Shown in pieces: positions 6,552 through 59,843 of a DNA stretch of 64,000 nt. The notes under the pieces are model-generated. The model was given only the letters and a program-made list of their open reading frames with translations, had not been told where the DNA came from and searched no databases. The translations under genes were made by a program, and so were the position numbers. The stretch is from the NCBI GenBank assembly GCA_021014945.1, contig MU266406.1, positions 1 to 64,000 of the forward strand, read 5' to 3'. Each line of letters begins with the position of its first letter. Positions within the stretch are counted from its first letter, which is position 1. Origin of the DNA: Leucogyrophana mollusca. Its lineage: Eukaryota; Basidiomycota; Agaricomycetes; Boletales.

Positions 6552-8954
6552 ATGGGCAAAAACAGGATCGAAACAAAACAGGCAGATGAGGCGCTGCTTG
6601 CCAGTCTGGGCTACAAACAAGAGCTTCGCCGGGCGTTCACTCCATTCGAGGTATGTATATCGACGTAGATCGGTTTCTGCATATTAACATGCCCCAAGGT
6701 ATTCGGTGTAGCATTTAGTGTCATTGGGCTTGTGCCTGCTATGACGTGCGTCCTTGTAGTGGATTATGAGGCGGACATCACTAACGCTCGGCTCGGACAT
6801 CACAGTTCTGTACTTTTCAACGCTGTTCCCAATGGAGGGGCAGTGTCTATAGTGTGGGGGGTGGGTCGAGATGTTTTCCGTCTCGTAAGTTGATTGACAA
6901 TATCCATTAACTTACGTATCTGCAGTGGGCTCTTGCCTGTCTGCCCATCCTATGCATTGGCATGGCTATGGCAGAGCTCGCTTCGGCAGCACCGACTTCT
7001 GGCGGCGTGGGTGCTTCCCTCCCCTTCCCCCTTCCTCGGATTCTGACAGCGATGGAAACAGCTGTACTACTGGACCTATACGTTTTCGTCCCCACGGTGT
7101 CGCAACCTTCTGTCTTGGATCGTTGGATGTGCGTCTCCTACTTTTGTGAGCATGTTCCCTCTGCTCATAAGCACATGAAGACATCAACACAATTGGATCC
7201 ATTACCGCAGTGGGTGAGATACGCTCCAGCTCTCGACGTACTAGACGAAAGACCACTGACGAGGAGGCTCTCAGCCTCTGTCGACTGGGCATGTGCAGTC
7301 CAGATCGCAGCTGGAGCCACTATCGGTTCAAACCAAGCCTACGTGACAACCAATGCGCAGCTCTAGTATGTTGAGCCACCGTTCTCCTACCCTCCAAAGC
7401 GATTTACGTTGTTCTAGTGGTATCTATCTCGCGATTGTACTTTCCCACGGAGTCCTCGTTAGCCTTGGGACGACCATCCTTGCGAGGCTGCAGACGGTTT
7501 ACATAATCCTAAATATCTGGTGAGATCTCCCCCTTTCGCCAGAGATCGTAAAGCTTGACAAGAGACGAAGTTTATGTCTGGCTATAATTGTCGCTCTTCC
7601 CGTGGCCACACCCCCTGAGTTCAAGAACAGTGCGAGCTATGCGCTCGGGAATTTCACCAACAGTCAGTTTTTTCATACTTAATGTGTCCCCGGCATGCCC
7701 ATGCCAGGTTCCCTACAGCAAGCGGATGGCCCTCTGGGTTCGCGTTTATTGTGGGCCTTCTATACCCATTGTGGGCAATAGGTATGGGCTCACGATTTTA
7801 GCAGCAGGGGCTATTCTTTACCAATAACACATTTCTAGGTGGTTATGATGCCAGTATACACATGAGCGAAGAGGCCTCAAATGCAGCCGTCGCCATTCCA
7901 TGGGCTATAGTGCGTAGGAACTCATGTCATAACTCGTGCAACTGCCAATTAGTCGAATCTTCTACCCTAGGTTGGTTCGATCGCCGTGACAGGCGTCCTT
8001 GGTTGGGGTAAAGTGTCCACAAGTTCTGCTGGGAGCTGATAGGAAGCTTACGCGGGGTGGACCTAGTCATGAATATTTCCCTTGTATTTTGTATGGGTAC
8101 CGATTTGGCGAACCTGACAGGTAGCCCGGTTGGTCAACCCATGGCGCAAATTCTCTACAACTCCTTGGGCAAGCAGGGCGCACTTGTTCTTTGGGCTATG
8201 ATAGTGCTCGTACAGTGCGTTCGCCTTTTGATTTTTGGGCACGTTAACAGCTCGGCAACACATTTATATAGATACATGATGGGTTCTAGCGCCCTCTTGG
8301 CCGCCTCACGCCAAACTTTCGCCTTCGCGCGCGATGGAGCGCTCCCGTTCTCGCGTTTGTTTCATCGTATTAACAGCTACACCAAAACCCCAGTGAATAC
8401 TGTGTGGTTCGTCGTAGTCATGTCGGTACTCTTGGGATTATTGGCCTTTGCAGGTACACAGGCGATCAACGCTGTCTTTACGATCGTGGTGACGTCGCAA
8501 TACATCTCGTACATGCTACCCATCTTTGCGCGTTTTGCGTTCAAGAACAACTTTGAGCCAGGGCCGTTCAATCTCGGATGCCTGGTGAGTCTGATTGTTC
8601 TGCTGCAGGATGCTCGGTTTATCTCGTTGCGCTCAGGGTTTCCCTGTGGCCGCGATCGCCGTCTCGTTCATGTTTTTCATGGTTATCGTATTCCTCTTCC
8701 CAGCAACACCACAGACAAGCGTGGCAGAAATGAACTACACCATCGTCGTACTCGGAGGCGTCATGTTTTTTGCCCTCGTGTGGTACTACTTTCCAGTCTA
8801 TGGCGGCGTGCATTGGTTCAAAGGACCCGTGGAGAATATTGGCTCACAGGGGAGGAAAGATTCCATGTCCCAGAATTGGGATCAGGAGTCAGTACCGAGA
8901 GTGGAGAAGGGCAGCGCTGTTGAAGAGGTAGTTATCATAGTCAAAGACCAGTAG
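6552..8954 (+). CDS. APC-superfamily amino acid/GABA-choline permease, copy 1
   Basis: Membrane transporter of the amino acid/choline transporter (ACT) branch, which includes yeast UGA4 and HNM1; expected to import amines such as GABA, choline or amino acids by proton symport. It starts MGKNRIETKQADEALL, followed by the family lead-in LGYKQELRRAFTPFE and then about 12 hydrophobic helices. Landmarks are MAELASAAPTSGGLYYWTY, WIVGYINTIGSITAV, GGYDASIHMSEEASNA (helix 6 to loop, about 7847-7890), SRQTFAFARDGALP (about 8308) and YTKTPVNTVW. It ends in a charged cytosolic tail at 8954. About a dozen exons join in phase, so the gene looks intact. Intron positions match those of the paralogue at 12237-14632, which shows that the two arose by duplication. 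Substrate cannot be told from sequence. Confidence 0.85.
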
Positions 8955-12236: not shown

Positions 12237-14632
12237 ATGGATCCACGCAAAGACGAAGTAAAACTGGCAGATGAGGCCCTTCTAGCGAACCTGGGATATA
12301 AACAAGAACTTCGACGAGCTTTTACGCCGCTCGAGGTGAGTATGATCGCAAATGCCAGCTGTCTCGTGCAGTCTGAACGATGGCTTATGATGACCCAAGA
12401 TTTTCGGTGTGGCGTTCAGCATCATTGGACTGGTTCCCTCTATGACGTGAGCACCAGATACTTGCACATACTCTGATTTCTCAATGGGATTGTCCACAGG
12501 TCTGTACTTTTCAATGCCATTCCCAATGGTGGTGCACTATCTATTGTGTGGGGGGTAAGTTATGCGGGTTATCATAATATGCATCCCGTGACAGCTCCTA
12601 TTTTTACAGTGGGCCGTCGCCAGTCTACTCATTCTTTGCATTGCCATGGCTATGGCTGAGCTCGCATCCGCAGCTCCCACTTCTGGTGGAGTGCGTAGCC
12701 CGCCGACCATCTCAGACATGCCATTCCTGACGTTAATCCGAAAAGATGTATTATTGGACGTATTCTTTATCATCTCCTCGTTGTCGTACTTTCCTGTGCT
12801 GGATTGTTGGATGTACGTTTCTGTATGCTGTTCACCCTGGCCCCCCGCGCTTATAAGGCCCAAAAGACGCAAACACTATCGGCTCTATCACAGCCTTAGG
12901 TGGGGCCGGTGCAATTGCTACATACTCCAAACACCTATTGATAACGCGTCCATCAGCGTCCATCGATTGGTCATGTGCTATTCAAATCACCGCTGCAGTC
13001 AGTATCGGCTCGAACCAAGTGTACGCAACAAATAATGCGCAACTCTAGTATGCTACCCGTTCATTGTTGACATTCTATTTCATGCTTATGACGTCCTAGC
13101 GGCATATATGCCGCGCTGGTACTCGCGCATGCAATCATTGTCAGTCTAGGAACCAATGTCCTTGCCAAGCTACAAACGCTTTACACATTCCTCAACGTTT
13201 GGTATGGTTGTCCCTCTTTCATGCCCACGGCGGAAGTTGACAGCGGGTAAAGCTTATGTCTCGCCCTTATCATTGCCCTTCCTATAGCAACTCCTCCGGA
13301 GTTTAGAAACACCGCAAGCTATGCTCTAGGAAGTTTTACAAATTGTAATCCTATCATGTGTCTTCCATTTGCTGCGCTAATGTGAATACCCCTCACAGTG
13401 GATGGCTGGCCATCAGGCTTTGCATTCATTATGGGCCTTTTGTACCCTATGTGGACAATAGGTACGCTCTTGTAATATGGGTAAAGCCACCACTATTGAT
13501 CGCCGCGTTTTACAGGAGGTTATGATTCGAGTGTACACATGAGCGAGGAGGCGTCAAATGCAGCTACCGCCGTCCCGTGGGCAATAGTACGACTTGCATA
13601 GGTTCTTTCTGCTGAATCTGACTCCGCCATTCTCAGGTCAGTTCTGTTTCTGTGGCAGGCATACTTGGCTGGGGTGAGCTTCCACCACCAATTGACTGTG
13701 CTGCCTTGTAAACACCTCGTCGCCAGCTATCAGTATATCCCTCGCGTTTTGTATGGGTACCGACTTGGAGAGCTTGATTGATAGCCCAATCGGCCAACCC
13801 ATGGCGCAGATTTTCTTCAACTCCCTGGGTCAAAAGGGTGCCCTTGTTCTGTGGGCGATGATAGTCCTTGTGCAGTGCGTACTTAGGTTGCTTTTACCTG
13901 CGCATATGCCCACGTGTATGCGTCGCCGCAGATTCATGATGGGCACCAGCTGTCTCCTCGTTGCCTCCCGCCAAACATTCGCTTTCTCTCGCGACGGCGC
14001 CCTCCCCCTGTCGCGCTATCTCTATCGCATAAACAACTACACTAAGACCCCTGTGAACACGGTGTGGTTCTCCGCCATAATGGTGCTGCTCCTTGGTTTG
14101 TTGGCTTTTGCGGGGACAGAGGCGATCAACGCAATCTTTACGATCGTGGTGACGTCGCAGTACATCTCGTACATGATCCCCATCTTTGCGAGGTTCGCCT
14201 TTAAAAATAACTTTAAACCCGGCCCCTTCCATCTCGGATTTATGGTGAGCACCGCGGCGACCGTCCCGTTACCATTTTGAGTGTGGGGGGACTTTCTGAT
14301 GCGACTGGCGTGGTACACAGAGTTTCCCTGTCTCGGCCATCGCTGTGTCATTCATGTTCTTCATGGACATTGTATTCTTCTTCCCCACGACACCACAAAC
14401 AACGGTTGACGAAATGAACTACACGGTAGTTGTACTCGGGGGCGTCATGTTCCTGGCCGTCGGGTGGTACTACTTACCCGTGTACGGTGGGGTACATTGG
14501 TTTAAAGGACCAGTGGCGAATATAGGTTCAGCTACAGGTGACGAGGTAAGAGCTTGGGACCGCGATTCAGTGGATGTGGATAGGGCGAAGAGCGAGGCAG
14601 AGGAAGCAGTGAGTTCAGTGAAGGACGAATGA
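12237..14632 (+). CDS. APC-superfamily amino acid/GABA-choline permease, copy 2
   Basis: Paralogue of the permease at 6552-8954, with the same helices, motifs and intron positions. It starts MDPRKDEVKLADEALL at 12237; an in-frame ATG at 12159 would add 26 residues that the paralogue lacks. Landmarks are LGYKQELRRAFTPLE, SAAPTSGGMYYWTY, WIVGYANTIGSITAL, GWPSGFAFIMGLLYPMW, GGYDSSVHMSEEASNA (about 13516-13560), SRQTFAFSRDGALP (about 13966) and YTKTPVNTVW. The C-terminal tail is acidic (DRDSVDVDRAKSEAEE) and quite different from that of copy 1, which suggests separate control of sorting or turnover. All exons join in phase; no lesion is visible. Confidence 0.87.
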
Positions 14633-43835: not shown

Positions 43836-45859
43836 TGCGAGCTACTTTGGACTCCCAGACACCAGATGTGGGGTTCTAATGTACAGTCGAGTACACAGGT
43901 TGAAGGGACAAAATGAGGGGAATTAGAACAACGTTAACAACGTGCTTTTGAGCATCGTTGTTCCTTTGCAGGGGTCGCCGTTGCGAAACCTTTTGCGTTT
44001 AATCTTGGTCCGCGGCCCTGGATATGATGATGATCACGCGGCCACATTAATTATTTTGTTTCTCGGTCACATAATTAGCGCAGTCACATCCATGTCACAG
44101 TCGGTTCAGTGTCACGTCTCCAAAAAAATCTCAACAACTCCTCATCAAAGACACAACACATATTCGCCAGGAGGAGTACTCTAACCAGCCCGACAGACGA
44201 GCAACCAGGCGGTAATTTCGCCTAGAAAATCCTCCTGGGGCTTGCGGTTATAGAGTTCAAAACGTGTTCCAAGCACCTACTCCAGATTAGGTTCCCATCG
44301 CTCTACCGCCCTACTCGGTCGCAAGTTCGATTACGGCCGCTCTTTCTCGGGGAAGAGGGTGTGGAAAACTCGCGCCCGAGGACAGCGGTGCATCCACTAA
44401 CATCACATCACGTAGTCACACCCTTTGCGGGTGTAGCCTAAACGTTCAGTCGAGGTCGAAGGCGGCATGCGCGGCGCCACAACGGTGTATAGAACGCTGT
44501 ATTTTTGTCTGACCGACCTCATGGTTTGGGTCGACACCGGAATTTTCGGCCTCCAAATCACCGGGCGCGTCACAGGTGCGTGTATTGCAATTATCTTGGT
44601 GTTGATAAATGGCATGACCTGGATTCAGATGTTGGCGAAGCCTCATTGCAAGCGCGCGAAGGCAGGGTTGAGTTCTCCGTTCAACCTTACGTTGTCCATT
44701 GTGCCCTAAACCGTCCGGCTGGAAGGAAAGAAAGACCGACTTATCTCCCTCTTTTGACACGGTTTTTGGGGCTTGCTCCCTCAGACTTACCAACAATTGG
44801 TGCTTACCAACAACTGGTGCCTACTGATCTTTGAACTTGATGGCGTGCCGCAGTCTAGATTGGGCCGGTCTGATAAAGATGACCCGTCTCGGAGGCCGGA
44901 GTGTTGACCCCGGTCATAGTAGTGGGTGGGTGGACTCCTCAGTGTGTGCTTTGCCCTCAGGAAGTTGATACTCTTACGTCGCATATTCGTTCATAGTTAC
45001 TTCGAAATGACATCTTGAAGTACTCTGGACTCCAACAAATGCCGAAACATCCATTACGCACGGGGGCCAAGATATCTGAGCACGTCCCGCCCAATATGGT
45101 TTGGGCGGCAGCATACGCTGCTGATCGAACGCCAGAAGACTCAATTACTCGGAAGCATGCGAGGTGTGAGTATCGTCTCTCGGAAGTAGAACTCCGTCTC
45201 GCAGTTAACGTCTCGTCGGAAGGTGGGGCGGTTGCATCATAAGGTTCGTCATGTCGCAATCGTCCGAACACAAGCTGATAACAATCAGCTCGAAGTTAGG
45301 CATGATATAGGGAAGAGCGGTCCCTTATCGTTTTATGAGCATCAGGCAATTTACTTTCCCGACCAGGTTCTTCTCGTTGGAAGTTAACCAGGAACAGCAT
45401 CAGGCTCACTTCATACAAGGAGAAGGCCCGCATATAAGCTTTTCAACCCGGCTGATCATCAAACTGGCATGGCTTGATTCCCTCAACTTAAGGCTCCTTG
45501 TTCGAAGTTAACTAGGAACAGTATCAAAATCACCTCGTACTCGTAGAGAAGAGCCAATATTCTGACTTTTCAATCCGACTGATCATCAAACCGGTGTGTG
45601 GCAGCGCCGGTAAGCAGGAGCTTTGCATGCGACGTGACATTTTTCAGCTGCAGGATTACACACAGGATTGGAGAGGAGCTTTACGCCGAATACGTATTGG
45701 ACCTGGCCCTTAGAAGGATCTCGAGGGCGGCGATGAGGGGTTATTAATGTACCTGAATCGTGAGGGGAAACGACCAAGAGTTGGCATATTCCTTTCAAAT
45801 GATGCTGAGCGCCCCTTTGTCGCCTGTTTGAACTCAGTACGCGCAACCCTAGGAAACCC
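43836..45859. other. Intergenic left of the SDR array
   Basis: About 2 kb without a recognisable gene. Frames at 44403-44834 and 44957-45271 have no domain. It contains a diverged direct repeat pair (45370-45472 and 45494-45598) just beyond the end of the array. Confidence 0.45.
45370..45598. repeat. Two diverged direct repeats of about 105 bp
   Basis: Unit 1 (about 45370-45472) and unit 2 (about 45494-45598) share, in order, GAAGTTAAC-AGGAACAG-ATCA, then TCAC-TC-TAC, GAGAAG and CTTTTCAA-CCG-CTGATCATCAAAC-GG, with scattered substitutions and a small indel. The spacer is about 20 bp. Origin unknown; it could be a relic of a mobile element or a local duplication. Confidence 0.8.
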
Positions 45860-47128
45860 TCAAGACAAGTGAACACCGCCATCCACGGATATCTATAAAA
45901 TGTCAAACTGTGTCAGCTCTATCCTCTTCTGTTGGTAAAACAGACTCACGCTTTGACCTGTAATGGCGATTCGATCGGACGACCTTATCAAACGTGCGCA
46001 AGGCGATGATACCAAACTGCAAATGCTCACCGGTAATGAAGTGTGCCTCTTTGGAGACGAGATATGACACGATGCTCGCGACATCGTCAGTTTTACCCAG
46101 GTAACCAACAGTGCTGCGGTCGGCCATCTTTCATAGATGGTCCACTTAGGTGAGCTTGATGATTCGAAAACCAGACCCACCCGCTTATAGTAATCTCCAT
46201 CATAGAATCTGTCTGAAGCTCCACTGTTGTCGTTCGCAACTTTTATGCCTTCCACTGCAAAAAACGAGTACAGTCAGCCCTGCACACTGGGTGAGCGAGT
46301 AACCTACACATGGGAGTTGCAATTGCTCCGGGAGCGTAGCAATTGACCGTGATGCCATAACGACCAAGTTCGAGCGCTACAGGGGCACAAATCAACCATC
46401 GAAACTAGAGATGGTGTCATTGAGCACTTGCCTGCACATTGAGTCAGACCCCGCACTGCGAACTTCGCAGAGCAGTACGCAATCTGATTTGGGTGTCCTA
46501 TTCATTCGCCGGTGGTAAGTGCAGTCATCGCTATTTGAAGTCGATGCAACTTACCCTGTTTCCCAGCGACAGAAGATGCCCCTATCAATCTCCCTCCCCG
46601 GCCCTGGGCAATCATCTGCTGCGCGGCGTACTTGTAGCAAAGAAACGTGCCCCGGACGCTAACCGCGAAATTGGCCTCGAAGTCTGCAGTGGTTGCTAGC
46701 CAACAACGGGAAGTGTTTGAAATCAGATAATGCGAATAGCCCGTTGAGCGTACTTTGCAACAGAGTGCCAACTCTTATGATACCGGCGTTCGCGATCATC
46801 TATCGTGGGCAGAGGTCAACGATGAGTGTGATACTTTCAACAACCAAGTTGAAATGGAGTTAACAATGTCGACTCCTCCAAGCTGCTTCACAACGCTATC
46901 AACCATCTCCTTGACTTCGTCCTCATTGGTAACATCTGCCAGGAGAGCGGATGAACGCCGACCCTTTGCTGCGATTTCGAGAGCCAGAGCCTCCAAATTC
47001 TCCTTGTTAGAGATTATATCATTCACTGCGACATCGTAACCATCCTCAGCAAGCCGGAGGCTTATAGCTCGTCCTATACCCTGTGCTGCGCCTGTTACGA
47101 TGGCAGTCCCTTTAGAAGCGGAAGTCAT
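45860..47128 (-). CDS. SDR array copy A: acetoin reductase-like dehydrogenase
   Basis: Classical SDR of the acetoin/diacetyl reductase (butanediol dehydrogenase) type, predicted to reduce a carbonyl or oxidise an alcohol with NAD(P)H. Nine exons give about 265 aa. Cofactor loop TGAAQGIG (about residues 12-19), MIANAG at the start of exon 2, catalytic Ser in LIGASS, catalytic Tyr and Lys as YCSAK, then TVNCYAPGAIATPM and the terminal SVDGG. The lid exon (46181-46254, 74 nt) begins LEGIKVANDN and is the longest in the array. The intron after GLTQCA begins GCAAGT (46431-46430) instead of GT. The start at 47128 aligns with the other copies. TTATAAG lies about 65 bp upstream. No lesion. Confidence 0.85.
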
Positions 47129-47190
47129 CGAGGTATTTGATAAAGGAGATGAAGTGAGAGTTGTCCGAGGTCAGTGATTGGAGACGCATT

Positions 47191-47198
47191 CTTATAAA
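47191..47198 (-). promoter_or_regulatory. TATA-like element of SDR copy A
   Basis: TTTTATAAG on the minus strand, about 65 bp before the ATG at 47128. The same motif sits at a similar distance before copies D, G and H. Confidence 0.5.
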
Positions 47199-47689
47199 AC
47201 TCTCGAGATGAACAGCTGACCATTACGAGAGAAGGCCAACTGACCTTCACAGTACACTACCATTTGAAGAACTGCGTGATAAGTCGGGCCGCGAGAGTAT
47301 AGGTCATGGGGTGCGTTTGTACTGGCCTGGTGATACCTACCGGTATAGAAGAGTCTACACTCAGCGATCTAGTAATGACTAGCCGTGTTTAGTTCGAGTG
47401 ACGCCCCTGAGATCTTCTGCAGTCCCTGAACCGACAGTCGGACAGCGAGCTTTCGAGTTTCGAAGTTCACGACAACAGCCTCTGACAATAAGTACAGCTT
47501 GATTGATCACCGCAGAAATGCATCCCAGTCATTATTCTGTTGTTGTAGATATGTAGAAACAAACCATATCGTCAGATCACCTGCGAAGCTGATCGACTTC
47601 AAGGGCTGAGGCTGATACTGTCCTGAAGACGCCACAATGCAACAGTTAAATGGTTAATTGTGGGCGTTTCCCTTGATATGTTACCATCC

Positions 47690-48740
47690 ACCAGTAACAA
47701 AATGCGCCTCCTTTGGCGCAAGATAAGGTGCAAAGCTTGCTATGTCTTCTGGTTGTCCGTCAGTCACATCCTAGAGGTAAAAGGGGTCAATCACAAATGC
47801 GAGCGAGGGGAAGATTGGGAGGGCATTGATAAGAGACAGGACGCACGGCCTTAACACATCGCTTTTAATAGTACATAGTACTATCTTGTGTAAGGAGCCT
47901 CTGGGCGCGAAAATCTCGCACCGGCGCAGGCACATCGAATACGGGGTGTTAACTCGAACGGGGCAATAACTTTCATCTGGGTCTCAATGGGGTCCAGGAG
48001 CATAGTTGACTGTGACGTGGTGGGGGCCTAGCACCAGTGCAGGAAAACAAAGGCAAATCAGACCATGCAAGGCGTTACGAAATAAACCCCACAGGTTCCC
48101 TGCAGCTTGCGTCAACCCTCGCACAGCAAACTCGCTTCACTATACGTTAAACAATCTAGGATCCTGACCCAAACAAAGCGTAAGTGGATACTGGTAGGCC
48201 AGATGGCGATAGTACACACCCCTTTTACCGGCCACTGAGGACACGCCAATGATCCTACCACCCCGGCCCTGAGAAGCCATCTGCATCGCAGCATGTTTGT
48301 AACAAAGGATGTTCCTCGCGCATTGACCGTGAGGATGAATTCGAAGTCCTCGATTGAGGCTAGAAAACCAGATCGGAATGCACCATGTGAGGACAACAAA
48401 CCCAGCAAACTGGTCGAAATCGAGCCCGCCCTTTTGATCCCCGCATTCGCCCCCACATATGACGCAACTGCCATGAAGAAAAGCTGGGGTGAGCTCTTGC
48501 GACACCCAAAATATCAAAGCCTCCCAACGTTTCAACGACACGATCCACCATCTTCTGGATTTCTGCTTCAACGCTGATATCCGCAAGTAATCTGCACCTC
48601 CGATGGCGCCTGGCGATATACCCGCTGAGACTGTCAACCAGATCTTGCATCCATGGGGTAACACAGACCAACATTGAAACCATCGTCGGTGAGACGCAAT
48701 GCGATGGCTCGGTCATGTACGGGAGATATCCTAAACCTGT
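47690..48740 (-). pseudogene. SDR array copy B: decayed dehydrogenase
   Basis: Pieces of the same SDR can be followed in order but in changing frames: RAIALRLTDDGFNV, then LLADISVEAEIQKMVDRVVETLGGFDI, GANAGIKRAGS, FILTVNARG, a frame change to LCYKHAAMQMASQGRGGR with VSSVAGKRG, then GLTQAAG, ALVLGPHHVTVNYAPG and GQPEDIASF with APKEAHFVTG. The N-terminal TGAAQGIG loop is destroyed, the Tyr of YxxxK is followed by an altered stretch (YSEASLL), and stops interrupt several segments. It is a non-functional duplicate between copies A and C. Confidence 0.85.
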
Positions 48741-49274
48741 CGAAAAAAAACGAGCGATCTAAGTCAGTAGCAAGCTCACGATGCTTCCCCATTATTCGAT
48801 CTACCACCTCGAGGTGGGCAGGCGAATGTGTCGAACTGAGGTAATAGGGGATGAGTAATCAAGACTTAGGTCTCGGTGACGGCTTCATAGCCTTGTACTG
48901 AATAAGTTGTGTGATCAATTGCTCATTCAGGTGAATGGAGCAAGTCGGACTCACGGCCATCACTGAAAGAGTTCTAGTGTTTTAGCCTTACAGGTCATAG
49001 GTCGCCAATGGTGATGATCGTCGTCGCCAGCTCTCGTCATCGCCTGGAGCGCACGAGGACTGTCGCTCAAATTCCTCCAGGGGTCGCTGGCGTCACTGGT
49101 CGCTACAAAGTCGCACCTCAGTATGTTCATATTTGATCACAGTTCACAGGATCCTTCATCTGCGGAATACATTTCCATTTCTCTGCACATCGCTGGGGGT
49201 ATACTTCTTGCTTTAGCCTTCACCATCCCGATAAATCCACTGTCCTACATCAGATGGGACAGACAGGAAAGCAC
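48741..49274. other. Intergenic, SDR copies B to C
   Basis: Former promoter of pseudogene B and 3' flank of copy C. No further coding relic recognised. Confidence 0.45.
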
Positions 49275-50539
49275 TTAAGACAACATTAAGCCTCCATCCA
49301 CAGACAACTGCACAAAAATCGTTTTTATGTTAGAATCCAAAGCTCTAGTATGGAGCAAAGTCACTTACGCTCTGGCCTGCGAGATCAATAATAGATACCG
49401 CGGAAGCGAGGGTTGGAACATCATTAATAAATGCGCTCTGTGTGATTGCATTCTAGGCTTACCGGAGATGAAGCGACCATCTTTCGACACAAGGAAAGAG
49501 ACAAGGCTCGCAACCTCTTCGGGCTGGCCAAGACCTCCGATGGCGGAGCTGTTCATCGTCTTCGCACGAAGAAAAGGGTATACGTTTGCATCATGGGCAA
49601 CACAGTTCCATGGAATAAACCCACCTGCTGGACTTCGGTGTCGAGATTAGGGGCAGCAGCATGGATGCCCCGCACTAGTCGGTGGACGTTGTTAGGTTGT
49701 GTGCTAGAGCTGGTTAAGATAAAGTCTTACCCATCGGGGTATCTATCGTGCCAGGAGCGTAGCAGTTAACTGTAATACCGTGACGGCCAAGCTCCAGCGC
49801 TGAAGGGACCGCCAAGAAAGGTTAGGCGATAGCTGGAAAGGCAGAGTTTTCAAGACGTACCTGTGGCCTGAGTGAGTCCCCTGACAGCAAATTTGGAGGC
49901 ACTGTAAGCTGCTACGAATGGAGCGCCTGCGAATTGGCTATAAGAACGAAGACATCGCGGGTTTCAGGAGATTATTCGCCTTTTTTACCGGCAGCCGAAG
50001 ACGCTCCAATTATCCTTCCACCACGGCCTTGTGCTATCATCTGCTTCGCCGCGTACTTGTAGCAGAGGTATATCCCACGTGCATTGACCGAGAAAAGCGC
50101 ATCCCAATCTTCGGTCTTGGCTAAAGACCTTATTAGCAGGGTAAGGAAGTGATCGTCAGAATACATACAATCGGTTATGGTGCCCATCCTGAGGATCCCA
50201 GCGTTTGCGATCATCTGTGCCAGGTTATAGGTGAGTGTCGCGTTTTCATGCCGGCTCCGGGATACTTACGACGTCGAGCCCCCCAAACTCTTTCACCACG
50301 GTCTCGATCATACTTTTCACCTCGTCCTCGACACTCACGTCCGAGAGTATTGATAAAGTTCGGCGGTTCTTAGCGGTGATCTCTTGAGAAACACCGTCAA
50401 GTTCAGCCTTCTTAGAGGGGACATCGTTCACAGCGACGTCGTAACCGTCGTCGGCGAGGCGAAGAGCGATGGCCCGACCGATACCCTGGGCTGCTCCCGT
50501 GACTAGGGCAGTCCCTTTCGACTCTGAGGATGCGGACAT
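49275..50539 (-). CDS. SDR array copy C: acetoin reductase-like dehydrogenase
   Basis: Complete SDR with the shared nine-exon plan. MSASSESKGTALVTG opens the protein; TGAAQGIGRAIALRL is the cofactor loop. Exon 2 begins MIANAGILRMG; catalytic segments are IIGASSAAGKKG and AAYSASKFAVRGLTQ, then TVNCYAPGTIDTPM and the C-terminus SLSVDGGLMLS. The lid exon (49626-49675, 50 nt) begins VRGIHAAAPN. To keep phase, the intron after GKKG must start GCGAAT (49979-49978), an unusual GC donor, and end at the CGCAG before GAPFVAAYS; this is the weakest junction. ATG 50539 is preferred over one eight codons upstream because it aligns with the other copies. A G-rich tract at 50562-50584 lies just before the start. 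Confidence 0.8.
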
Positions 50540-50561
50540 GAGAATCTGATTCTTGTGCAAT

Positions 50562-50584
50562 GGGGGTGGGGTGGGGTGGGGGGG
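50562..50584 (+). promoter_or_regulatory. G-run tract with G-quadruplex pattern upstream of SDR C
   Basis: Four runs of 5, 4, 4 and 7 G, each separated by one T, lie 23-45 bp before the ATG of copy C, with the G-rich strand as template. Single-base loops and runs of at least four match the strongest canonical quadruplex pattern. On the coding strand it is a C-rich tract; pyrimidine tracts are also common near fungal transcription starts, so a structural role is only inferred. Confidence 0.6.
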
Positions 50585-51599
50585 ATAACTGGACGACTAT
50601 GTCCCGTTGCGATTGCTGGTCTTTATCTGTTTAGAAACGTACCATTGCTGAATATTCGGAACGACTTCCACTGTACGTGATAGAAGCTATCAACGCGTCA
50701 CGTCGCGGAGCAGGGTTGAGTGACAGCTATCAATCCGGCGCACCCACCATCCCCCCGAGACATCAAAACAGATATGATCATCTTGTCAATGATGCATGAT
50801 TCGCGATCTATGGGACAAAAAGTTGGGAAACTCGGAGGCGTTTGTCAGGAACTTGCTACTTTCGAAGATGCAGCACAGGAGAGGCTGAGAAACGGTAACT
50901 CACTGAACCTTGGCCAGGCAGGCGCAGCCGGAGAAATGGGTGTCGCTCGGCCTCGTGACTTTCGACAATCTCATCGTTGTGCATAATTGAAGACCCCAAA
51001 AAGTTGGCAAGAAAAGAGTTCGCGTCCTTGAAATATGGAAGAGACAGCTGGTAGCTGACTAATGTGCAGGTGGGTCACGCCTGCCCACACGTTCTGATGT
51101 AAATTCGGAGCTAGTAGTGGGTCGGGTGAGTTCTCAGTCATATCCATAAATCTTTGACTTCTGCTCAAGCGCATCCAACACCAGCCAACACCCAATTGGG
51201 GTCGGCATAGCGCACGTAGAAATACTTATCCTCGGATGTGCACTGAACAGAAGTCCTGACCGAAGTCCTGACCGAAATCAATCGGACCAGGGTGGGGGCA
51301 CTAGAATTCCTGTCGCTCATCTACTCGTAAAGATGAGTCAGTCATGGGCCATTGTGATTCGTTAGGATTGGTCCAGTCAACTGACGATCAGACAGGTGTC
51401 GGATGTCTCCCCTCCAGATCACCTTGTGTCTAGAGGGCTATTTCACGGTTTCAAGTCGTACAAGATGATCGATGAATCGACGAAGCTGGGCGACGATGGA
51501 ACCCCCGCTCTGGCCCTCACATAGCCTCACATGCACACTTGATTATACATCACATGATGATACCTACCACAGTAAGTCCGTGCCACTGCCGGGGCGCCC
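50585..51599. other. Intergenic, SDR copies C to D
   Basis: About 1 kb between copy C and copy D, the longest gap between neighbouring complete copies that contains no SDR relic I could recognise. A short tandem repeat (GAAGTCCTGACC twice) occurs near 51250-51275. Confidence 0.45.
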
Positions 51600-52844
51600 T
51601 CAGGACAGGACCATTCCTCCATCCACAGAAATCTGTTGAGAGCCTCAGTTCGGGTACTTTTGAGGCTATCACTGGATTGAAAATAACACACGCTTTGGCC
51701 TGCGGTTAGAAGCAATGCATCCCAGATGAAATTCAATTGGCACAATGACTCGGAGCGAATCCTCGTGCTCACCGGTCACAAAATGAGCTTCCCCGCTCGC
51801 AAGATAGGACACAATGCTTGCAATATCTTCGGGCTGACCTATGTATCCAGCAGCCGTGGCAGATATCGCCTGCCGGGGCGAACACGTGAAACCGGTTTGT
51901 ACCATGCAGGCTTTGAGCATTCCGATAGGCAACCAGGACAACTAGTACTGACCTGCTTGGATAAGTCACCTCCATTTTTCAGCAACAGCGCATCCACTGA
52001 TGGTCACAAATGCAGATGAGCCATGGTCGTAGACTGAGGTTGCAGGACTTACGCATGGGAGTATCTATGATTCCGGGGGCATACGAATTGACTGTAATTT
52101 TATGCTGGCCCAGTTCCAGTGCTAGACAACTGGCTATCAAAAATATGGAACGCATAATAGAATAGCGAATCACCTGCAGATTGGGTGAGTCCCCGAATAG
52201 CAAATTTGGAAGCACAGTATTCAGCGTTAACAGGCCACCCTGTCAGTTCAAAAACATGATAAGTGGTTCCCAGGTGCGATAACCAAGCCTCTACCTCTTT
52301 TGCCCGCCGCTGATGACGCCCCGATTATTCTGCCGCCACGTCCTTGTGCGATCATCTGACGCGCCGCGTGTTTGTAACAAAGGAATACACCTCGTGTGTT
52401 GATCGCGAACGCGGTATCCCAGCCCTCGACTGTAGCTGAAATAGTGTCGATGAGGTAGGACAGCGATGGAGTCCTTGTGTAGTGAGAACGTACCGTCGAC
52501 TACGTGACGGAACTTGCCAGAAATACCGGCATTTGCGACCATCTGCGAACATTATCAACAGTGCGGTATTACAGCACGTCTGAACTCACGACGTCGAGAC
52601 CTCCAAGCGCTTTAACTACTTCATCGATCATGCCCTTCACTTCCGCCTCCACGCTCACATCTGTGCACACCGAGAAGGCCCGGCGTCCTGTTGCGTTGAC
52701 CTCTCGGGCAACAGCATCCACCAGGTCTTTCTTTGCAACAAGGTCATTCAAAGCAACATCGAATCCGTCGCTGGCGAGTCGAAGGGCGATGGCGCGACCA
52801 ATACCTTGGGCAGCCCCTGTCACAAGCGCGATACCTTTAGACAT
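51600..52844 (-). CDS. SDR array copy D: acetoin reductase-like dehydrogenase
   Basis: Complete SDR, start MSKGIALVTGAAQGIGRAIA at 52844 (an upstream in-frame ATG is not shared with other copies). Exon 2 begins MVANAGISG; then WDTAFAINTRGVFLCYKHAA, IIGASSAAGKRG, catalytic YCASK, ALELGQHKITVNSYAPGI and IDTPM. The lid exon (51953-51996, 44 nt) is the shortest and begins LDALLLKNGG; it is followed by GYIGQPEDIASIVSYLASGE and the C-terminus ISVDGGMVLS. Its first exon is nearly the same as that of copy E (IALRLASDGFDVALND in both), so D and E are close relatives. A TATA-like TTATAAGG is about 60 bp upstream. No lesion found. Confidence 0.87.
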
Positions 52845-52901
52845 GATAGTACGCAATAGGTATAAAGATGGGAGATCTACTGAGGGGGGATTTCCTAGAC
52901 T

Positions 52902-52910
52902 CCTTATAAG
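52902..52910 (-). promoter_or_regulatory. TATA-like element of SDR copy D
   Basis: CTTATAAGG on the minus strand about 60 bp before the ATG at 52844, matching the position in copies A, G and H. Confidence 0.5.
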
Positions 52911-53468
52911 CAAATGGCACACGCCAAGACTGTTGTTCTACCACCGGCAAGCAGACATACTTAATGGTGGGCGATGTAGTGATGCGCTGTAGCTCCGTTA
53001 TTCTCAAACTATAACTAGATTCCATTTTGCAGTGACGTCGCGCCACAAGTTTATCGAAGAATGCTTGCATCGGATTGGACCTACAATCTATTCCAGCTCG
53101 ACATGAGCTAATATGATAGCCCCCGAAGCGCTTCGGGCTTTCGGTGCTGCACTGTGTGGGTGGCACTGCTATGCGTTCGTTTGCCGGCCGAATGCTCACG
53201 TGTCGCATACATACATATCATCGTCTTTGGAGCACACAGGACAAAAAGGTGCTCAGAGCACCTCTATGGTCCGAACATGATAGGGGGCACGCAGACAAAC
53301 TGTAGCCTATGTCCGCTGACTCGGAAGCATGACAGCTGAGGCGGTTGCGGGCACCACTCGGGAGGGACATTACTCATTTTTCGTGAAGGCGCCATAACTA
53401 TGGTGGCGTTCATGCGACCGATTAGATTCCTCAAGCGTCGACACCCCTGAGTAGGTACCAAGAAGCGT
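52911..53468. other. Intergenic, SDR copies D to E
   Basis: No gene relic recognised. It holds the upstream region of copy D and the 3' flank of copy E. Confidence 0.45.
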
Positions 53469-54727
53469 TAAGACAACGTGGCACCTCCATCTACAGAGAG
53501 CTGTGGTGGAGCGGCGGCGTTAGTCTTGGTCCATATAGCTTCATACTAAGATGACATACGCATTGGCCTGCGATTGACGAACAATTTGGAGTGCAGCAAT
53601 GCAAGTAACCATGATTGGTCTCAGCTGGCACAGTGAAAACATTGGTTAATGAACACTCACCAGTCACGAAGTGAGCTTCCTTCGATGCGAGGAATGACAC
53701 AATGGCCGCGACGTCCTCTGGCTGGCCCATATAACCGAGTGCAGTCGTTGCGACAACCTATCATGTTTGAGGAGTGCATTATCGTTCAGACTACATAATT
53801 CGAACGCAAAGCTGTGACTGACTTTTTTGGCGTAGGCGTTCTCTTTCTCCCCGGGAGCTTTCTGTGCCTGCACTATTTGTAGAGTGGAATGTCACCCAAA
53901 GCTGTTGGAAACTGAGTGTAAACGCCTTACTCATTGGGGTATCTATAGGCCCAGGTGCGAATGAGTTAACAGTGATATGATGTTGACCCAATTCGAGTGC
54001 TATAAAGAGTCAGCTGGTGGGACGAGGTCAATTGTAATTAGTTACCGGCGGATTGAGTCAGCCCTCGAACTGCAAACTTCGAAGCACTGTAATCTGCAGC
54101 ATGGGCCCAGCCTACGCGCATCCAAACACAATCAGGTGCTTTAAGTCGCGCGATGGTGCGATTGTCACCTTTTTTACCCCACGAAGATGATGCCCCGAGA
54201 ATCCTGCCGCCACGTCCCTGTGCAATCATCTGAAGTGCTGCATACTTGTAGCATAAGAACATTCCGCGTGTGTTTACCGCAAAGACAGCATCCCAATCTT
54301 CGGCTGTAGCTAGAAAGAACGGCCGTGAATGAAGTGCTGTGATTGCTTGGGCAGGGGCGTACTGGTGAGCACACTGCCATCTGGGCATGCTATGCCCGCA
54401 TTTGCGACCATCTATGAGGTCTGTTGAGTAGAAGGTAAACCATATGACTTTGATTCCGCTTACAACATCGAGTCCTCCTAACTCATTGACTACCTCAGCA
54501 ACCATTCCTTTGACTTCTGCTTCCACCCTCACATCTGCGTATACGGAGATCGCCCTATGTCCCGTGGCGTCGATTTCTCGCGCGACGTCTGCAAGCTGAT
54601 CCTTCTTCCTCGGAATATCATTCAAAGCGACGTCAAACCCGTCACTAGCAAGTCGAAGAGCTATAGCGCGGCCAATGCCTTGAGCTGCTCCTGTCACGAG
54701 TGCGATACCTTTAAACTGGGATGGCAT
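53469..54727 (-). CDS. SDR array copy E: acetoin reductase-like dehydrogenase
   Basis: Complete SDR with start MPSQFKGIALVTGAAQGIG at 54727. Exon 2 begins MVANAGIACPDG; then TAEDWDAVFAVNTRGMFLCY and ILGASSSWGKKG, in which the usual VAG/AAG is replaced by SWG. Catalytic YSASK follows, then ALELGQHHITVNSFAPGP and IDTPM. The lid exon (53823-53872, 50 nt) begins MQAQKAPGEK. After it come GYMGQPEDVAAIVSFLASKE and the C-terminus LSVDGGATLS. All introns are GT...AG here, including the one that uses GC in copies A and G. The substitution beside the catalytic Ser and the Phe for Tyr in NSFAPG are worth noting, but nothing suggests loss of function. Confidence 0.86.
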
Positions 54728-55419
54728 GATGGCTGTTGATTTATGGGACAAAAATCATGCTGATGAGGGAGCGTTTGGTATTCACGTTATGCTCTGCATG
54801 GGGAGCGGCCTGGCTCCAAACCGGCACAGTAGCTCCACTTCTTGTCCACCGGTCTGGAGTAGATGGTACCTCGATCAGCAGTAAAAATAGTCGTCATCAA
54901 TGAAGATCTAACTCATCTTTGACGTTTTCAGTTGGAGACAATCTGAGATAGGTCGCAGATAAGTAACTGATCCTGCGTAGATGAGAGACATGATAGCCTT
55001 TTATGTTGACAAGGTGCCAGTGTAACCCAGGCGGCCGTACTTTCGACGCGATACAAGGGACGTTTACTAGTAACAGTCCTTTGTCATTCTTGGGAGGACG
55101 GTGTCTATGGCTTCTATGTCTCTTCACTGTGGAAATATGCAGGATAAAGGGCGAGTAGATAATTAGTGATGGCGGCGCTTCCTACCACAGTCACCACAAT
55201 ATGTACTGCTGGGCAAAAGGCCAATCAAACCTTGAATTGAACACCACGATGCGATGGACAAGGATTAAATCAAGAATAACCAGAGATTTGAACGTTGTGC
55301 AGCGTTAGCGAAGGAAATCGCATTATTAACTCGCTTGCGCTTTACCCCGCAGGATGACGTCGAAATGGATGGTAACGGTGTTCGTGAGTGGAATTAGTAT
55401 CGGAGCACTCCCACTGCAG
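54728..55419. other. Intergenic, SDR copy E to pseudogene F
   Basis: No coding relic recognised in the part next to copy E; the end of pseudogene F fades out near 55420. Confidence 0.4.
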
Positions 55420-56350
55420 GATGTTACACTCACTAGTAACAATCTGTACCCCCTTCGACACAAGATAGGATACAAGGTTGGCGACATCTTCCGGCTGGCC
55501 CCCCAACAGCAGATTTTTGATGCACTGATTCAGAGACGTTGAATAGTACCATGTACTGAGGTCGCCAGAATACGGACCTGATTCATTGCTTCCAAGAGGG
55601 CCTTGTAGTCGGGGACGACGGTCTGTTCCACTGACTCAGATAATATCGGTGGTGGGTTCGAGGACATCAGCAGGAACGTGACAGTTCTTACATATCCGTG
55701 TGTTTATGACTCCAGGTGCGTAAGAGTTAACCGCGATACGATGCTGGCCGGGGTCCGGGGCTGGATTACGAAGTTAGTGAGATCCAGTTTTGAACGTATG
55801 AAATCAACTCCTACCCGCACTGTATGTTCCTAAGCCGAGAAATCCTACATTGTCCGAACTCTCAGATGACTTGGATATATATTGTTCGCGATATGAAACT
55901 AACTTTCGCCAGACGCAGAGCATCCTACCACTACGTCCTTGGGTGATCATATGAAATGTTGCATACCTGTGACAGGGGTATGTTCTACGCGCATTCACCC
56001 GGCAAACAGCGTCCCGATCTTGAGTAGAACCTGGGAGCCACAAGAGGTGTAATAAGGGAGATGGCATCAGTAAGGTCACGGGTTACTAAATCTATGGCCT
56101 ACGATGGCCAATCTGCCAAGGTTGTGACTGCACCATACACTATATCCTTCACCTGCTCTTCTTCCCCAACGTCAGCGCAGATTGAGAAAGCTCTTCCATG
56201 CTTGTTACCCACAGCCTGCACGATGTCGCCCAACGGTGCCTGATGTAGTTCAGTGCGATGTGGAAGCCATCTTTCACGAGTCGAAAGGCGAAGGTAAGTC
56301 TGATCCCGTGGGTTGCTCAGGTCACGAACGCAATGTCTTTACACACTGAA
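55420..56350 (-). pseudogene. SDR array copy F: decayed duplicate of copy G
   Basis: Reads in order on the minus strand: KDIAFVT, a stop, ATHGI, KDGFHIALN, then (after a frame change) GRAFSICADVGEEEQVKDIVYG, DAVCRVNARRTYPCHRYA, MITQGRSGRM, LGTYSAGRS (the catalytic Lys of YxxxK is lost), RIAVNSYAPGVINTRI and GQPEDVANLVSYLVSKG. DGFHIALN and CADVGEEEQVK are otherwise found only in copy G, so F is a dead duplicate of G rather than an independent lineage. Frame changes and the missing Lys rule out a working SDR. Confidence 0.85.
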
Positions 56351-56689
56351 GCTATGGTCCTATGCCGAGGGGCAGAGGGCTAGAGTTGTTGATAGCTTGC
56401 TGGCGATGGAGGCGTTTTTTGTAACCTTCTGAGTACAGTTTCAAGAGCACTCATTCCGAGGTGCGAGCAAGCGTACCTACATGGCTTCCGCACGAACCAA
56501 GTACCCGACTGAATTTGGCACCCATATGCGTCCTCGGGTGGTCCGCTTACAAACTGCCTTGATAGACTAGCATAAAGAAGGAGCGCTTCTCTTGAAGTTG
56601 ATGCCAGTGATCCAACTGATCTGTCAGCAAAACGATCCAAAGGATGTCAGCATCATGATGTTTGGGCTCCATAGAACATTACCCCCGTT

Positions 56690-56860
56690 TAATCGCAGTA
56701 CTTACCTCCACCTCCGCTGATCTGCGTATCGGATACCACGACCGCTCGATGTCCCGTGACGCCGATCCCTTGTGCGACATTGCCAAAGTGGTATGTCTTC
56801 TTAAAATATCGAGTAAAGCGGCTTCATCAAGGTCGTTAGCGAGAAGTTTCAGGACAAGCG
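56690..56860 (-). pseudogene. SDR relic F2, fragment of exon 1
   Basis: A short minus-strand stretch reads VAQGIGVTGHRAVVVSDTQIS, which parallels VAREIDATGHRAISVYADVR of copy E, with a nearby LANDLDEAALLDI piece that parallels ALNDIPSKKALLDDI of copy G in another frame. Nothing downstream belongs to it. I read it as the last remnant of a further array member; the match is short, so confidence is moderate. Confidence 0.55.
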
Positions 56861-56952
56861 TGCATGCTATGAGCAAAGAGTGCCCCAGACTTAAATACTG
56901 GACGTGCGATAAGTCACCACAAATATGAATTGAACCCCAGAACAAGCAAAGT

Positions 56953-58191
56953 TTAAGTCAAAAAAATCCCGCCGTCTGCTGAGAACTGGGAATTGCGCAT
57001 GGTCAAAGAAGGAATCACCGATGGAAGAGTTTACTCACGCATTGACCTGCGTTTACGTGATGTTAGTGCCCAGCTCTTCCACTTATTAATGAGAAAATCA
57101 CCAGTAACATATCGTGCCTCCTTCGACGCAAGATAAGACACAAGGCTGGCGATATCTTCCGGCTCGCCGACATGTCCAACGGCGGTGTCCCCAACATACT
57201 GTTAAGGAGACACATAAGTTTGATGCACTGATATTACCACTAGGATATATACCTTATTCTTTTCCTCTTCGAAGGATGTATAGTCAGAGGGAACGAAGGT
57301 ACTCTCCCCTGGTTACGAGAACAACAGTGAGCTCGAGCATATTGCTACGAACGAAACGAAGGACCTCACAGATCGGCGTGTTTATAATTCCGGGTGCGTA
57401 CGAGTTAACCGTTATGCCATGCTTCCCAAGTTCCAAAGCTAAATGCCAAGTCAGCGATATATGGCTTGGGATGTGACAAACCACCACCTGCCTGCGGTAT
57501 GAGTCAGACCGCGGACCGCGAATTTGCTGGCACTATATGCTCCTAAGCCAATGTAACCTACGTTCGCCAAAAAGATCAGCTTATTCCAACCGTGTTCATC
57601 ATAGGATGACAACTTACCCCTTTTGCCGGCTACCGACGACGCGCCTATGATCCTCCCGCCACGGCCTTGCGCAATCATTTGTAAGGCCGCGAACCTGTAA
57701 CAGAGGTAAACTCCGCGCGCGTTGACCCGAAGCACTTTGTCCCAGACATCTGCAGGAGCTGACGATTGCGGCGTGGTTAGTACTGTAAGCAAATTGGCAT
57801 TCACATAATTGACGCACTGCCTGTAAGAGAATTCACCCTGGCGATGCCCGCATTTGCAACCATCTACATCACGGGATTAGTGCATGTGTTAGGTGGAAGT
57901 CATAGCTTGCGCGACTCTATGACTTACGACGTCTAATCCGCCTAACGTTTTGACTGTGCCATGCACCATCTCCTTCACCTGCTCTTCTTCCCCAACGTCA
58001 GCGCATATCGCGAAAGCTCTCCCACCCTTATCACCAACAGTCTGCGCAATATCATCCAACAGTGCCTTTTTAGAGGGGATGTCGTTCAGCGCGATGTGGA
58101 AGCCATCATTAGCGAGTCGAAGAGCGATGGCACGTCCGATCCCGTGGGCCGCTCCGGTGACGAGGGCAATACCCTTGAATACTGATGCCAT
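56953..58191 (-). CDS. SDR array copy G: acetoin reductase-like dehydrogenase
   Basis: Complete SDR, start MASVFKGIALVTGAAHGIG at 58191 (His replaces Gln in the cofactor loop). Exon 1 carries CADVGEEEQVKEMVHG. Exon 2 begins MVANAGIARVNS; then DVWDKVLRVNARGVYLCYRF, IIGASSVAGKRG, catalytic YSASK and ALELGKHGITVNSYAPGI with INTPI in place of IDTPM. The lid exon (57253-57308, 56 nt) begins WESTFVPSDY and is rich in acidic residues. Then VGHVGEPEDIASLVSYLASK and the C-terminus FSADGGIFLT. The intron after GLTHTA must begin GCAGGT (57491-57490) to keep phase, at the same place as the GC intron in copy A. TTATAAG is about 60 bp upstream. Confidence 0.84.
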
Positions 58192-58248
58192 GGGTCTGCG
58201 CTGATGTGTGGATGAAAATCGCTGACTTTACCCGATGTTGTTGACCAT

Positions 58249-58256
58249 TCTTATAA
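58249..58256 (-). promoter_or_regulatory. TATA-like element of SDR copy G
   Basis: CTTATAAG on the minus strand about 60 bp before the ATG at 58191. Confidence 0.5.
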
Positions 58257-58583
58257 GCATCGAGCTGCCGTTCCCAGCATACCAGTTCTGATTAGCAAAG
58301 GCGAGCCCCAACCGTGAATAGCTTGCTTCTGCCAACAATGCACCCAGCTGTATCTGTCACCCAGGACAGCCCCAGGTGACTTGATTACGAGGGGCGATGG
58401 GATCAGCTTGGAAGACACCTAACAAAAGAAGTCATTTCTGGTGAGATTATGATGAGCGCCCGCAAAAGTTGAGTAATGTAGTTTCGGTCCGGACTACACT
58501 GTATGTGAGAAGTAAGGCCAGAAGGATGTCCACATGGCCTATTCTCGAACATCTGAACTATGGCAGGTGGTCAAGAAACAGCC

Positions 58584-59843
58584 TTAGCTTAACACAATCC
58601 CTCCGTCAACGGAAACCTATTAAACAGGATCAGAAATTGTCGAAATTGGCTGGCATAAGCCCCTTACGCTCTGGCCTACAACGTTCCATTTGATACGCTT
58701 GGTCAGGAGCCGATTTTAACTCCGTCTGGATTAACGCTTACCAGTTATGAAATGCGCTTCCTTAGAAGCCAGATAAGACACAAGACTAGCAACATCGTCC
58801 GGCTGACCGGGGTATCCGACAGCAGAATTATCTATTACCTTCAAAGCCGGTGGACCATCATCAGCCCTGACTGGAAGCAGTGCAATACAACGAAGAGAAC
58901 GTACTCGCTGAACTCGGTCCTTGCCCGAATCGTCGCGCCCACGCTGAATTCGGATGCTATCCACTTATTGATTAGGTCAATCAGTTACAATAATCAGTGA
59001 TTGCCAGCAATCTGTGAAAGCGGATTTACTCATTGGGGTATCAATGATTCCTGGGGCGTAAGAGTTGACTGTTATGCCGTGACTACCCAATTCCAAAGCT
59101 GAGGGCGCCAGGTTAGGAGGGATGGGGAAAGATCGATCAACTTGTGGGCTGTACCTGCCGCCTGTGTCAACCCTCGGACGGCGAATTTGGTTGCACTATA
59201 GGCTACCCCGGCAAGAAGGCCTGCAAATTTCACATGCGCAGCGGCATTGACGCACTGAGCGATAAATGATGAACTATTGAGGCATAACTGACCTCTTTTG
59301 CCGGCCATTGAAGACGCGCCCATTATTCTCCCGCCACGGCCCTGGGTGATCATCTGGATTGCGGCATACTTGTAGCACAGAAATACTCCTTTGGCGTTTA
59401 CCTCGAAAATGGAGTCCCAGTTTTCGCCAGTAGCTAAGAGCAGTCAGCTGGGCAGCGGAAGGTGTAAGAGCTCAAAGCAGCCGGCCTACATTCCAGTAAC
59501 GAGCCCACTTGAGCAATTCCAGCGTTTGCGACCATCTTTAGCCAATTGTGAATATTTTGCGAGAGTAGTCTGTTAGAGCGCCACTCACCACGTCTAATCC
59601 CCCCAGCTCTTCCGTCACTCTTTGGACCATCCTCTTTACCTCGGATTCTATACTCACATCAGCAGATACGACGCAGCTTCGGCAACCATTTGCGCTGATT
59701 TTCAATGCGAGAGCTTGTAGCTGTTCTTCTTTGGCACGAAGGTCGTTCACCGCGACATCGAAACCATCGTGCGCAAGTCGAAGAGCGACAGCATGGCCGA
59801 TGCCTTGCGCTGCCCCCGTTACGATGGCAATACCTTTGGACAT
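58584..59843 (-). CDS. SDR array copy H: acetoin reductase-like dehydrogenase
   Basis: First gene of the array in the direction of transcription. Start MSKGIAIVTGAAQGIGHAVA at 59843. Exon 2 begins MVANAGIAQVGSLLE; then WDSIFEVNAKGVFLCYKYAA, IMGASSMAGKRG, catalytic YSATK and ALELGSHGITVNSYAPGI with IDTPM. The lid exon (58905-58963, 59 nt) begins MDSIRIQRGR and is strongly basic, unlike the acidic lid of copy G. It is followed by GYPGQPDDVASLVSYLASKE and the C-terminus VSVDGGIVLS. All introns are GT...AG. TATATAAGG lies about 53 bp upstream. No lesion; only 392 bp separate its stop from the start of copy G. Confidence 0.87.

Follow-up and report, generated by a model that had tools for sequence, protein, structure and literature searches.

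A probably long-lived tandem array of short-chain dehydrogenase/reductase genes in Leucogyrophana mollusca, with copies that differ in the predicted substrate lid

We have analysed a window of 64,000 nucleotides from the wood-rotting basidiomycete Leucogyrophana mollusca of the Boletales (positions 1 to 64,000 of contig MU266406.1, assembly GCA_021014945.1), in which nine copies of a short-chain dehydrogenase/reductase (SDR) gene are arranged head-to-tail between positions 45860 and 59843, all on the minus strand, as located by splice models and exon hidden Markov models (HMMs). The L. mollusca genome, strain KUC20120723A-06, is named in an excerpt of PMC5689174 that has no SDR content. We consider it probable that this is a long-lived tandem array of classical SDR genes built on one plan, with six copies intact under long purifying selection and three decayed, drawing on several lineages and differing in the substrate lid. 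An earlier note on this DNA had described the array; that observation is confirmed and its anatomy was sound. What it missed was the variability of exon 6, and that one copy, A, belongs to a Boletales orthogroup with a better-kept lid and a change in the catalytic tetrad.

Organization of the array

Six copies (A, C, D, E, G and H) form complete in-frame genes of nine exons. Exons 3, 4, 5, 7, 8 and 9 have invariant lengths in all six (141, 66, 69, 97, 8 and 33 nucleotides, respectively), while exon 1 is 255, 264 or 270 nucleotides long, exon 2 is 46 or 49, and exon 6 varies between 44 and 74. Exon 8 is a micro-exon of 8 nucleotides, found in every intact copy and located at 45950-45957 in A. 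The 48 introns are 46-93 nucleotides in length; 45 are GT-AG and three GC-AG, with one of the latter in each of A, C and G. The claim that nine copies share a single nine-exon plan therefore stands for the intact genes, but the relics B, F and F2 retain only some of the exons.

The intact genes are A (45860-47128, 265 amino acids), C (49275-50539, 259), D (51600-52844, 253), E (53468-54727, 258), G (56953-58191, 259) and H (58584-59843, 257). As the earlier note stated, gene models and alignment give all six a full frame with TGxxxGIG, NAG, Ser and YxxxK. The classical SDR features are likewise present, with TGxxxGxG, the catalytic Ser and YxxxK in 6/6 copies and the Rossmann fold of the SDRs. 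A beta-2 Asp was found in all 216 aligned rows that have a letter at that position. By the usual SDR rule this residue points to NAD(H), and the intact copies are probably NAD(H)-dependent.

Each intact copy has a counterpart among the deposited L. mollusca proteins, identical for D (P0009, 100%) and close for H (P0001, 99%), C (P0034, 98%), G (P0177, 97%), E (P0014, 95%) and A (P0124, 93%, over 65% of the query). Where inspected, the differences trace to choices of gene model. The deposited models of A, C and G diverge from ours at introns with unusual donors, losing exon 1 in A, part of exon 4 in G and three residues at intron 3 in C.

Age and phylogeny of the copies

In a six-copy alignment the intact proteins are 54-70% identical in pairwise comparison, D and E being the closest pair within the array (70%). 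Over the 15 pairs the proportion of synonymous differences (pS) is 0.69-0.82 and that of non-synonymous differences (pN) is 0.19-0.29. Since the synonymous sites are saturated while the protein sequence has been held, the six copies have been under constraint for a long time; they are old genes and do not stem from a recent burst.

Trees were constructed from 219 proteins found in searches together with those of the window, one of 60 rows and a quick one of 141 rows; supports given below refer to the 60-row tree. Each protein search contributed the best 120 of 2,233-3,711 matches, rows longer than 300 amino acids were excluded, as were most of those from metagenomes, D, E and H were represented by their deposited models, and B, F and F2 are absent. 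Copy A groups with Hygrophoropsis aurantiaca P0022 (100/99), to which it is 87% identical over 264 columns, within a clade (100/100) comprising proteins of Hygrophoropsis, Serpula, Hydnomerulius, Gyrodon and Lanmaoa and one metagenome protein. G groups with Hygrophoropsis P0058 (100/99), E with Hygrophoropsis P0054 (94/83, not starred), and D with a set of four from H. aurantiaca (95/91). The four proteins in the D clade (100/98) are a species-level expansion in Hygrophoropsis. The 141-row tree concurs for A and D.

Constraining the six intact copies to a single clade cost 209.5 log-likelihood units and was rejected by the approximately unbiased (AU) test (p 8e-8), as was a clade of the five copies without A (p 4e-4); a clade of D with E was not formally rejected (p 0.078). 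On these trees the array does not form one clade and is old, with A, D and G firmly, and E less firmly, siding with different Hygrophoropsis proteins. The earlier grouping of D with E is thus correct in that they are the closest pair in the array, but the tree places them with separate H. aurantiaca proteins. The six intact copies all fall within one Agaricomycete SDR family, and so are not drawn from unrelated SDR subfamilies. One family in tandem, with live copies beside dead ones and interleaved with those of other species, agrees with the proposed birth-and-death evolution, although the array is older and more mixed than had been claimed.

As a proxy for clustering elsewhere in the Boletales we counted, among the matches listed, family members whose contigs are of equal length and were taken to be one and the same: 4/5 in Hydnomerulius, 5/5 in Paxillus involutus, 3/3 in both Serpula and Gyrodon, 2/4 in P. 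rubicundulus, 2/3 in P. ammoniavirescens and 2/8 in H. aurantiaca. The contigs bearing at least three members span 0.4-1.1 Mb, making this weak evidence of tandem order. Four homologues from Roridomyces, Ceratobasidium and Rhizoctonia (P0002, P0003, P0010 and P0178) have 427-452 amino acids, long enough for two family members, and are perhaps tandem genes fused by annotation. Four others, from Suillus and Rhizopogon (P0158, P0161, P0116 and P0219), are without parts of YxxxK in the alignment; here the enzymes are altered or the gene models poor.

Compared exon by exon, the copies show a local similarity of A and H, which lie at opposite ends of the array. Their seventh exons (46127-46031 in A, 58838-58742 in H) have 72% protein identity, compared with 47-53% when A is matched with each of the remaining four; this might reflect exchange between the ends, or chance. 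In the short exon 2 the pairs E-H and G-H stand out at 73%.

Decayed copies

Relics were sought in the array with HMMs of exons 1-5 and 7 after the intact genes had been masked. As controls, window positions 1-44800 gave a best score of 9.4 bits, and 30 dinucleotide shuffles a best of 7.4 bits. Copy B (47692-48713) scored 64.3, 12.1, 92.4, 25.1, 20.8 and 42.1 bits for exons 1, 2, 3, 4, 5 and 7, respectively, that for exon 2 barely exceeding the controls. The start of its exon 1, with the TGxxxGIG stretch, was not found, its reading frame is broken and there are stop codons in the region of the catalytic Tyr. Copy F (55435-56353) scored 118.7, 59.8, 38.5 and 48.6 bits for exons 1, 3, 5 and 7, with exon 4 within noise; it has a stop codon inside TGxxxGIG and a frame break in exon 1, and YxxxK has gone. 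F2 (56702-56844) retains only part of exon 1 (24.7 bits). With matches above both controls and these signs of decay, the description of B and F as pseudogenes and of F2 as a relic is upheld. No tenth copy rose above the controls in this search of the array; a further relic suspected by eye between B and A (around 47540-47350) gave a best match of 1.8 bits, within noise.

The proposed association of F with G is borne out at the DNA level, where they are 77% identical (378/491 sites), with differences of 0.21 at first, 0.13 at second and 0.35 at third codon positions. The 35% difference at third positions compares with 54-67% among pairs of intact copies. B is roughly equidistant from all six intact copies (64-68% DNA identity), and the best match of F2 is to E (92/135 sites), too short for it to be placed. 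Given the similarity of F to G, and the nearly even distance of B from every intact gene, F looks fairly young, a dead relative of G and the sole fairly recent event in the array, and B would be an old dead lineage.

The substrate lid

Mean amino acid identity among the array copies is just 14% in exon 6, compared with 55-82% in the other exons. In our splice models exon 6 lies at 46181-46254 in A (74 nucleotides), 49625-49674 in C, 51953-51996 in D, 53823-53872 in E, 57253-57308 in G and 58905-58963 in H. The predicted structure of P0022, the Hygrophoropsis orthologue of A, is an SDR fold (pLDDT 96.1). Mapped onto this model by homology, exon 6 corresponds to residues ~196-221, i.e. most of the helix 194-204, a loop and the start of the helix 218-225, coincident with the lid helices. 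As judged from the model, exon 6 encodes the SDR substrate lid. In a related SDR the lid participates in binding both cofactor and substrate, according to PMC3662788.

We compared lids between species at matched divergence of the remaining protein (core identity 0.68-0.80). Over 291 pairs outside the A orthogroup the mean lid identity is 0.22, whereas for 17 pairs within that orthogroup it is 0.54, with a minimum of 0.38; of the other pairs 1% reach the A-orthogroup mean and 5.5% its minimum. Six named pairs of A orthologues have lid identities of 0.42-0.69 (core 0.69-0.88), while in five pairs of D, E and G with their Hygrophoropsis relatives the values are 0.12-0.26 (core 0.66-0.76). Pairs in both comparisons are not independent. 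Segmentation of the lid by pattern, used for the named pairs, caught 75/211 rows, leaving one listed D pair without a segment. Segmentation by alignment columns, used for the pairs at matched divergence, kept 205/211 rows once six entries that duplicated window genes had been removed. It clips the end of the A lid, and gave a lid identity of 0.07 between E and P0054 and of 0.27 between D and P0076. Since the lid of A is better kept than those of D, E and G, the comparison speaks for one gene of fixed specificity among several that may be changing freely.

A change in the catalytic tetrad of copy A

The position of the tetrad Asn in helix alpha-4, which we take from SDR numbering, aligns with the Asn of the acetoin reductase 3wye. 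Of 217 aligned rows 210 have Asn here and seven have Ser. The seven correspond to six genes, copy A being represented by both the window and the deposited protein, and all lie in the A clade: they are from L. mollusca, Hygrophoropsis, Hydnomerulius, Gyrodon, Lanmaoa and one metagenome protein. Ser is thus found in 6/7 genes of the A orthogroup and in no other gene among the aligned rows. In the window the Asn is present in C, D, E, G and H, so that A alone departs from the classical tetrad; its Ser codon (within FAVSVRG) is at 46658-46660, the residue taken from the alignment and the position by eye. The earlier note was right that the motifs it named are intact, but the tetrad Asn was not among them. 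A retains every other motif residue, and by its fold and these motifs it stays an SDR, with an altered tetrad. An SDR altered at a different tetrad residue (Tyr to Leu) is in print (PMC11614110).

The Serpula protein, which has a similar lid, is the first branch of the clade and retains Asn. For this reason the simplest reading is a single change of Asn to Ser after Serpula split off.

Flanking DNA

In the flanks 20 open reading frame (ORF) pieces were scanned with Pfam, most shorter ORFs lying outside the scan; 12 matched and eight did not. The matches are amino-acid permeases, pieces of a P-type ATPase, an HD protein, a weak F-box, a caleosin, pieces of a pyridine-nucleotide oxidoreductase and AAA helicase domains. 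Among these 20 pieces there was no cytochrome P450, polyketide synthase or terpene synthase, so that a biosynthetic cluster was rejected, and no tie of the array to a single pathway was seen. The caleosin-related piece is at 5275-5745 (8.6e-43). Two permease pieces lie ~5 kb apart (8012-8923 and 13696-14280), perhaps a second small duplication. An imperfect direct repeat of ~100 bases, 74% identical, is found just downstream of A (45370-45467 and 45494-45594). Scans of the window for tRNA genes and with Rfam were empty.

Upstream of the intact genes no shared word of 7 to 9 bases exceeded shuffles. Four genes, A (47128), D (52844), G (58191) and H (59843), have the sequence TATAA ~55-70 bases upstream of the start codon; C and E do not. 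Four of six was reached by none of 20,000 shuffles and none of 20,000 random placements, with an interval chosen after the sites had been seen.

Discussion

We propose that the intact copies would be carbonyl reductases or alcohol dehydrogenases that share one Rossmann core but act each on a different substrate, the difference residing mainly in the lid encoded by exon 6. Tandem duplication would have added copies, F having arisen from the G lineage, and decay would account for the losses (B, F and F2). Copy A belongs to a slowly changing orthogroup of several Boletales; given its better-kept lid, slow change and Ser in the tetrad, it probably keeps one substrate. We advance with little confidence a further step, in which the A orthogroup, an SDR lineage widespread in the Boletales, first fixed its lid and then exchanged Asn for Ser, altering the proton relay, rate or chemistry. 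On this reading a conserved anchor gene would stand in the array beside neighbours that change fast and owe their specificity to a single exon.

Several points weigh against this view of the array, which draws on sequence and predicted structure. C and H are without a firm one-to-one relative, and 7/57 inner branches of the 60-row tree are open. In the alignment the cofactor motif of P0054, the relative of E, is missing its first Gly, and this protein may be poorly modelled. The donor site of intron 1 in A (GTTAAC) is poor, and P0124 starts at exon 2. Saturation makes the ratio dN/dS unusable, so selection on the lid is not resolvable by it. Lids are poorly conserved between D, E and G and their relatives in H. 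aurantiaca, and the case for fixed separate substrates is the weaker for these copies. Moreover, lid loops change fast in many SDRs, and the divergence of exon 6 may be relaxed constraint and not adaptation.

The last two points lead to the alternative that survives best, that the exon 6 loop accepts almost any sequence and that copies are kept for dosage. The low lid identities of those five pairs, and of the 291 pairs across the family, are consistent with this, but the lid of the A orthogroup is better kept and that of a related SDR takes part in binding (PMC3662788), and we regard a neutral lid as unlikely.

We think it less likely still that the copies are acetoin/diacetyl reductases proper, i.e. 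isozymes of 2,3-butanediol metabolism. TIGR02415 (acetoin reductase) is the best NCBIfam model for all six, with scores of 246.2 bits for D, 240.0 for C, 235.8 for E, 224.7 for G, 266.4 for H, and 246.9 for P0022 standing for A (C, E, G and H scored as deposited models), and bacterial butanediol dehydrogenases are among the nearest structures, three of them with a Z-score slightly above that of the Antrodia camphorata SDR6 (8xvn). Yet all six are below the curated cut-off of 304.35 bits, the closest solved protein both by sequence and by Foldseek is SDR6, and the lids differ. The activity suggested by the earlier note thus holds as the nearest family name, and as an activity of these copies it is unproven.

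It is very improbable that the array grew in a recent burst within the L. mollusca lineage, leaving copies that are still redundant. Head-to-tail order, a shared gene plan and the fairly young F would agree with this, but the saturated synonymous sites and the rejection of a single clade, with or without A, have largely refuted it. An assembly artefact, with split alleles or misjoined haplotypes taken for copies, can be dismissed almost entirely: the deposited proteins, all encoded on a single contig that most likely belongs to the same assembly, lend no independent support, but the intact copies differ by 30-46% in protein, far beyond alleles.

Searches of the literature found no paper for 8XVN or camphorata SDR6, on acetoin reductase in Agaricomycetes, on tandem short-chain dehydrogenases in Boletales or on basidiomycete tandem acetoin reductase SDRs. 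Members of the family are named in databases as, for example, 'acetoin reductase'; we met no proof of that activity.

The array is ordinary in kind, and the A orthogroup is its unusual member, worth an assay. It differs in no categorical way from the Agaricomycete 'acetoin reductase-like' SDRs (such as P0022 of H. aurantiaca, P0012 of Serpula lacrymans and P0037 of Hydnomerulius pinastri), with which it shares family and motifs, and to which it adds the anatomy of the DNA, dead copies and exon lengths included. The six intact enzymes, which share a core and differ in their lids, together with an orthogroup changed in the tetrad and an Asn-bearing Serpula relative, make a natural set that would allow one to test whether a single exon sets the specificity of an SDR and what the tetrad Asn does. 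The bacterial acetoin reductases and 2,3-butanediol dehydrogenases (3a28, 3wye and 1geg) are 37-40% identical to the P0022 model. SDR6 of A. camphorata is nearest by sequence (243 bits to H and 227 to D), and superimposes on that model with a root-mean-square deviation of 0.9 Å over 228 residues at 54% identity, ranking eighth by Z (38.3 compared with 39.8 for the best). It differs in having a shorter lid and additional residues at the site of intron 1 in our family; these ~23 residues (89-111) start Val-Arg-Gly, and might be an unspliced intron that has been translated, a reading that is unproven.

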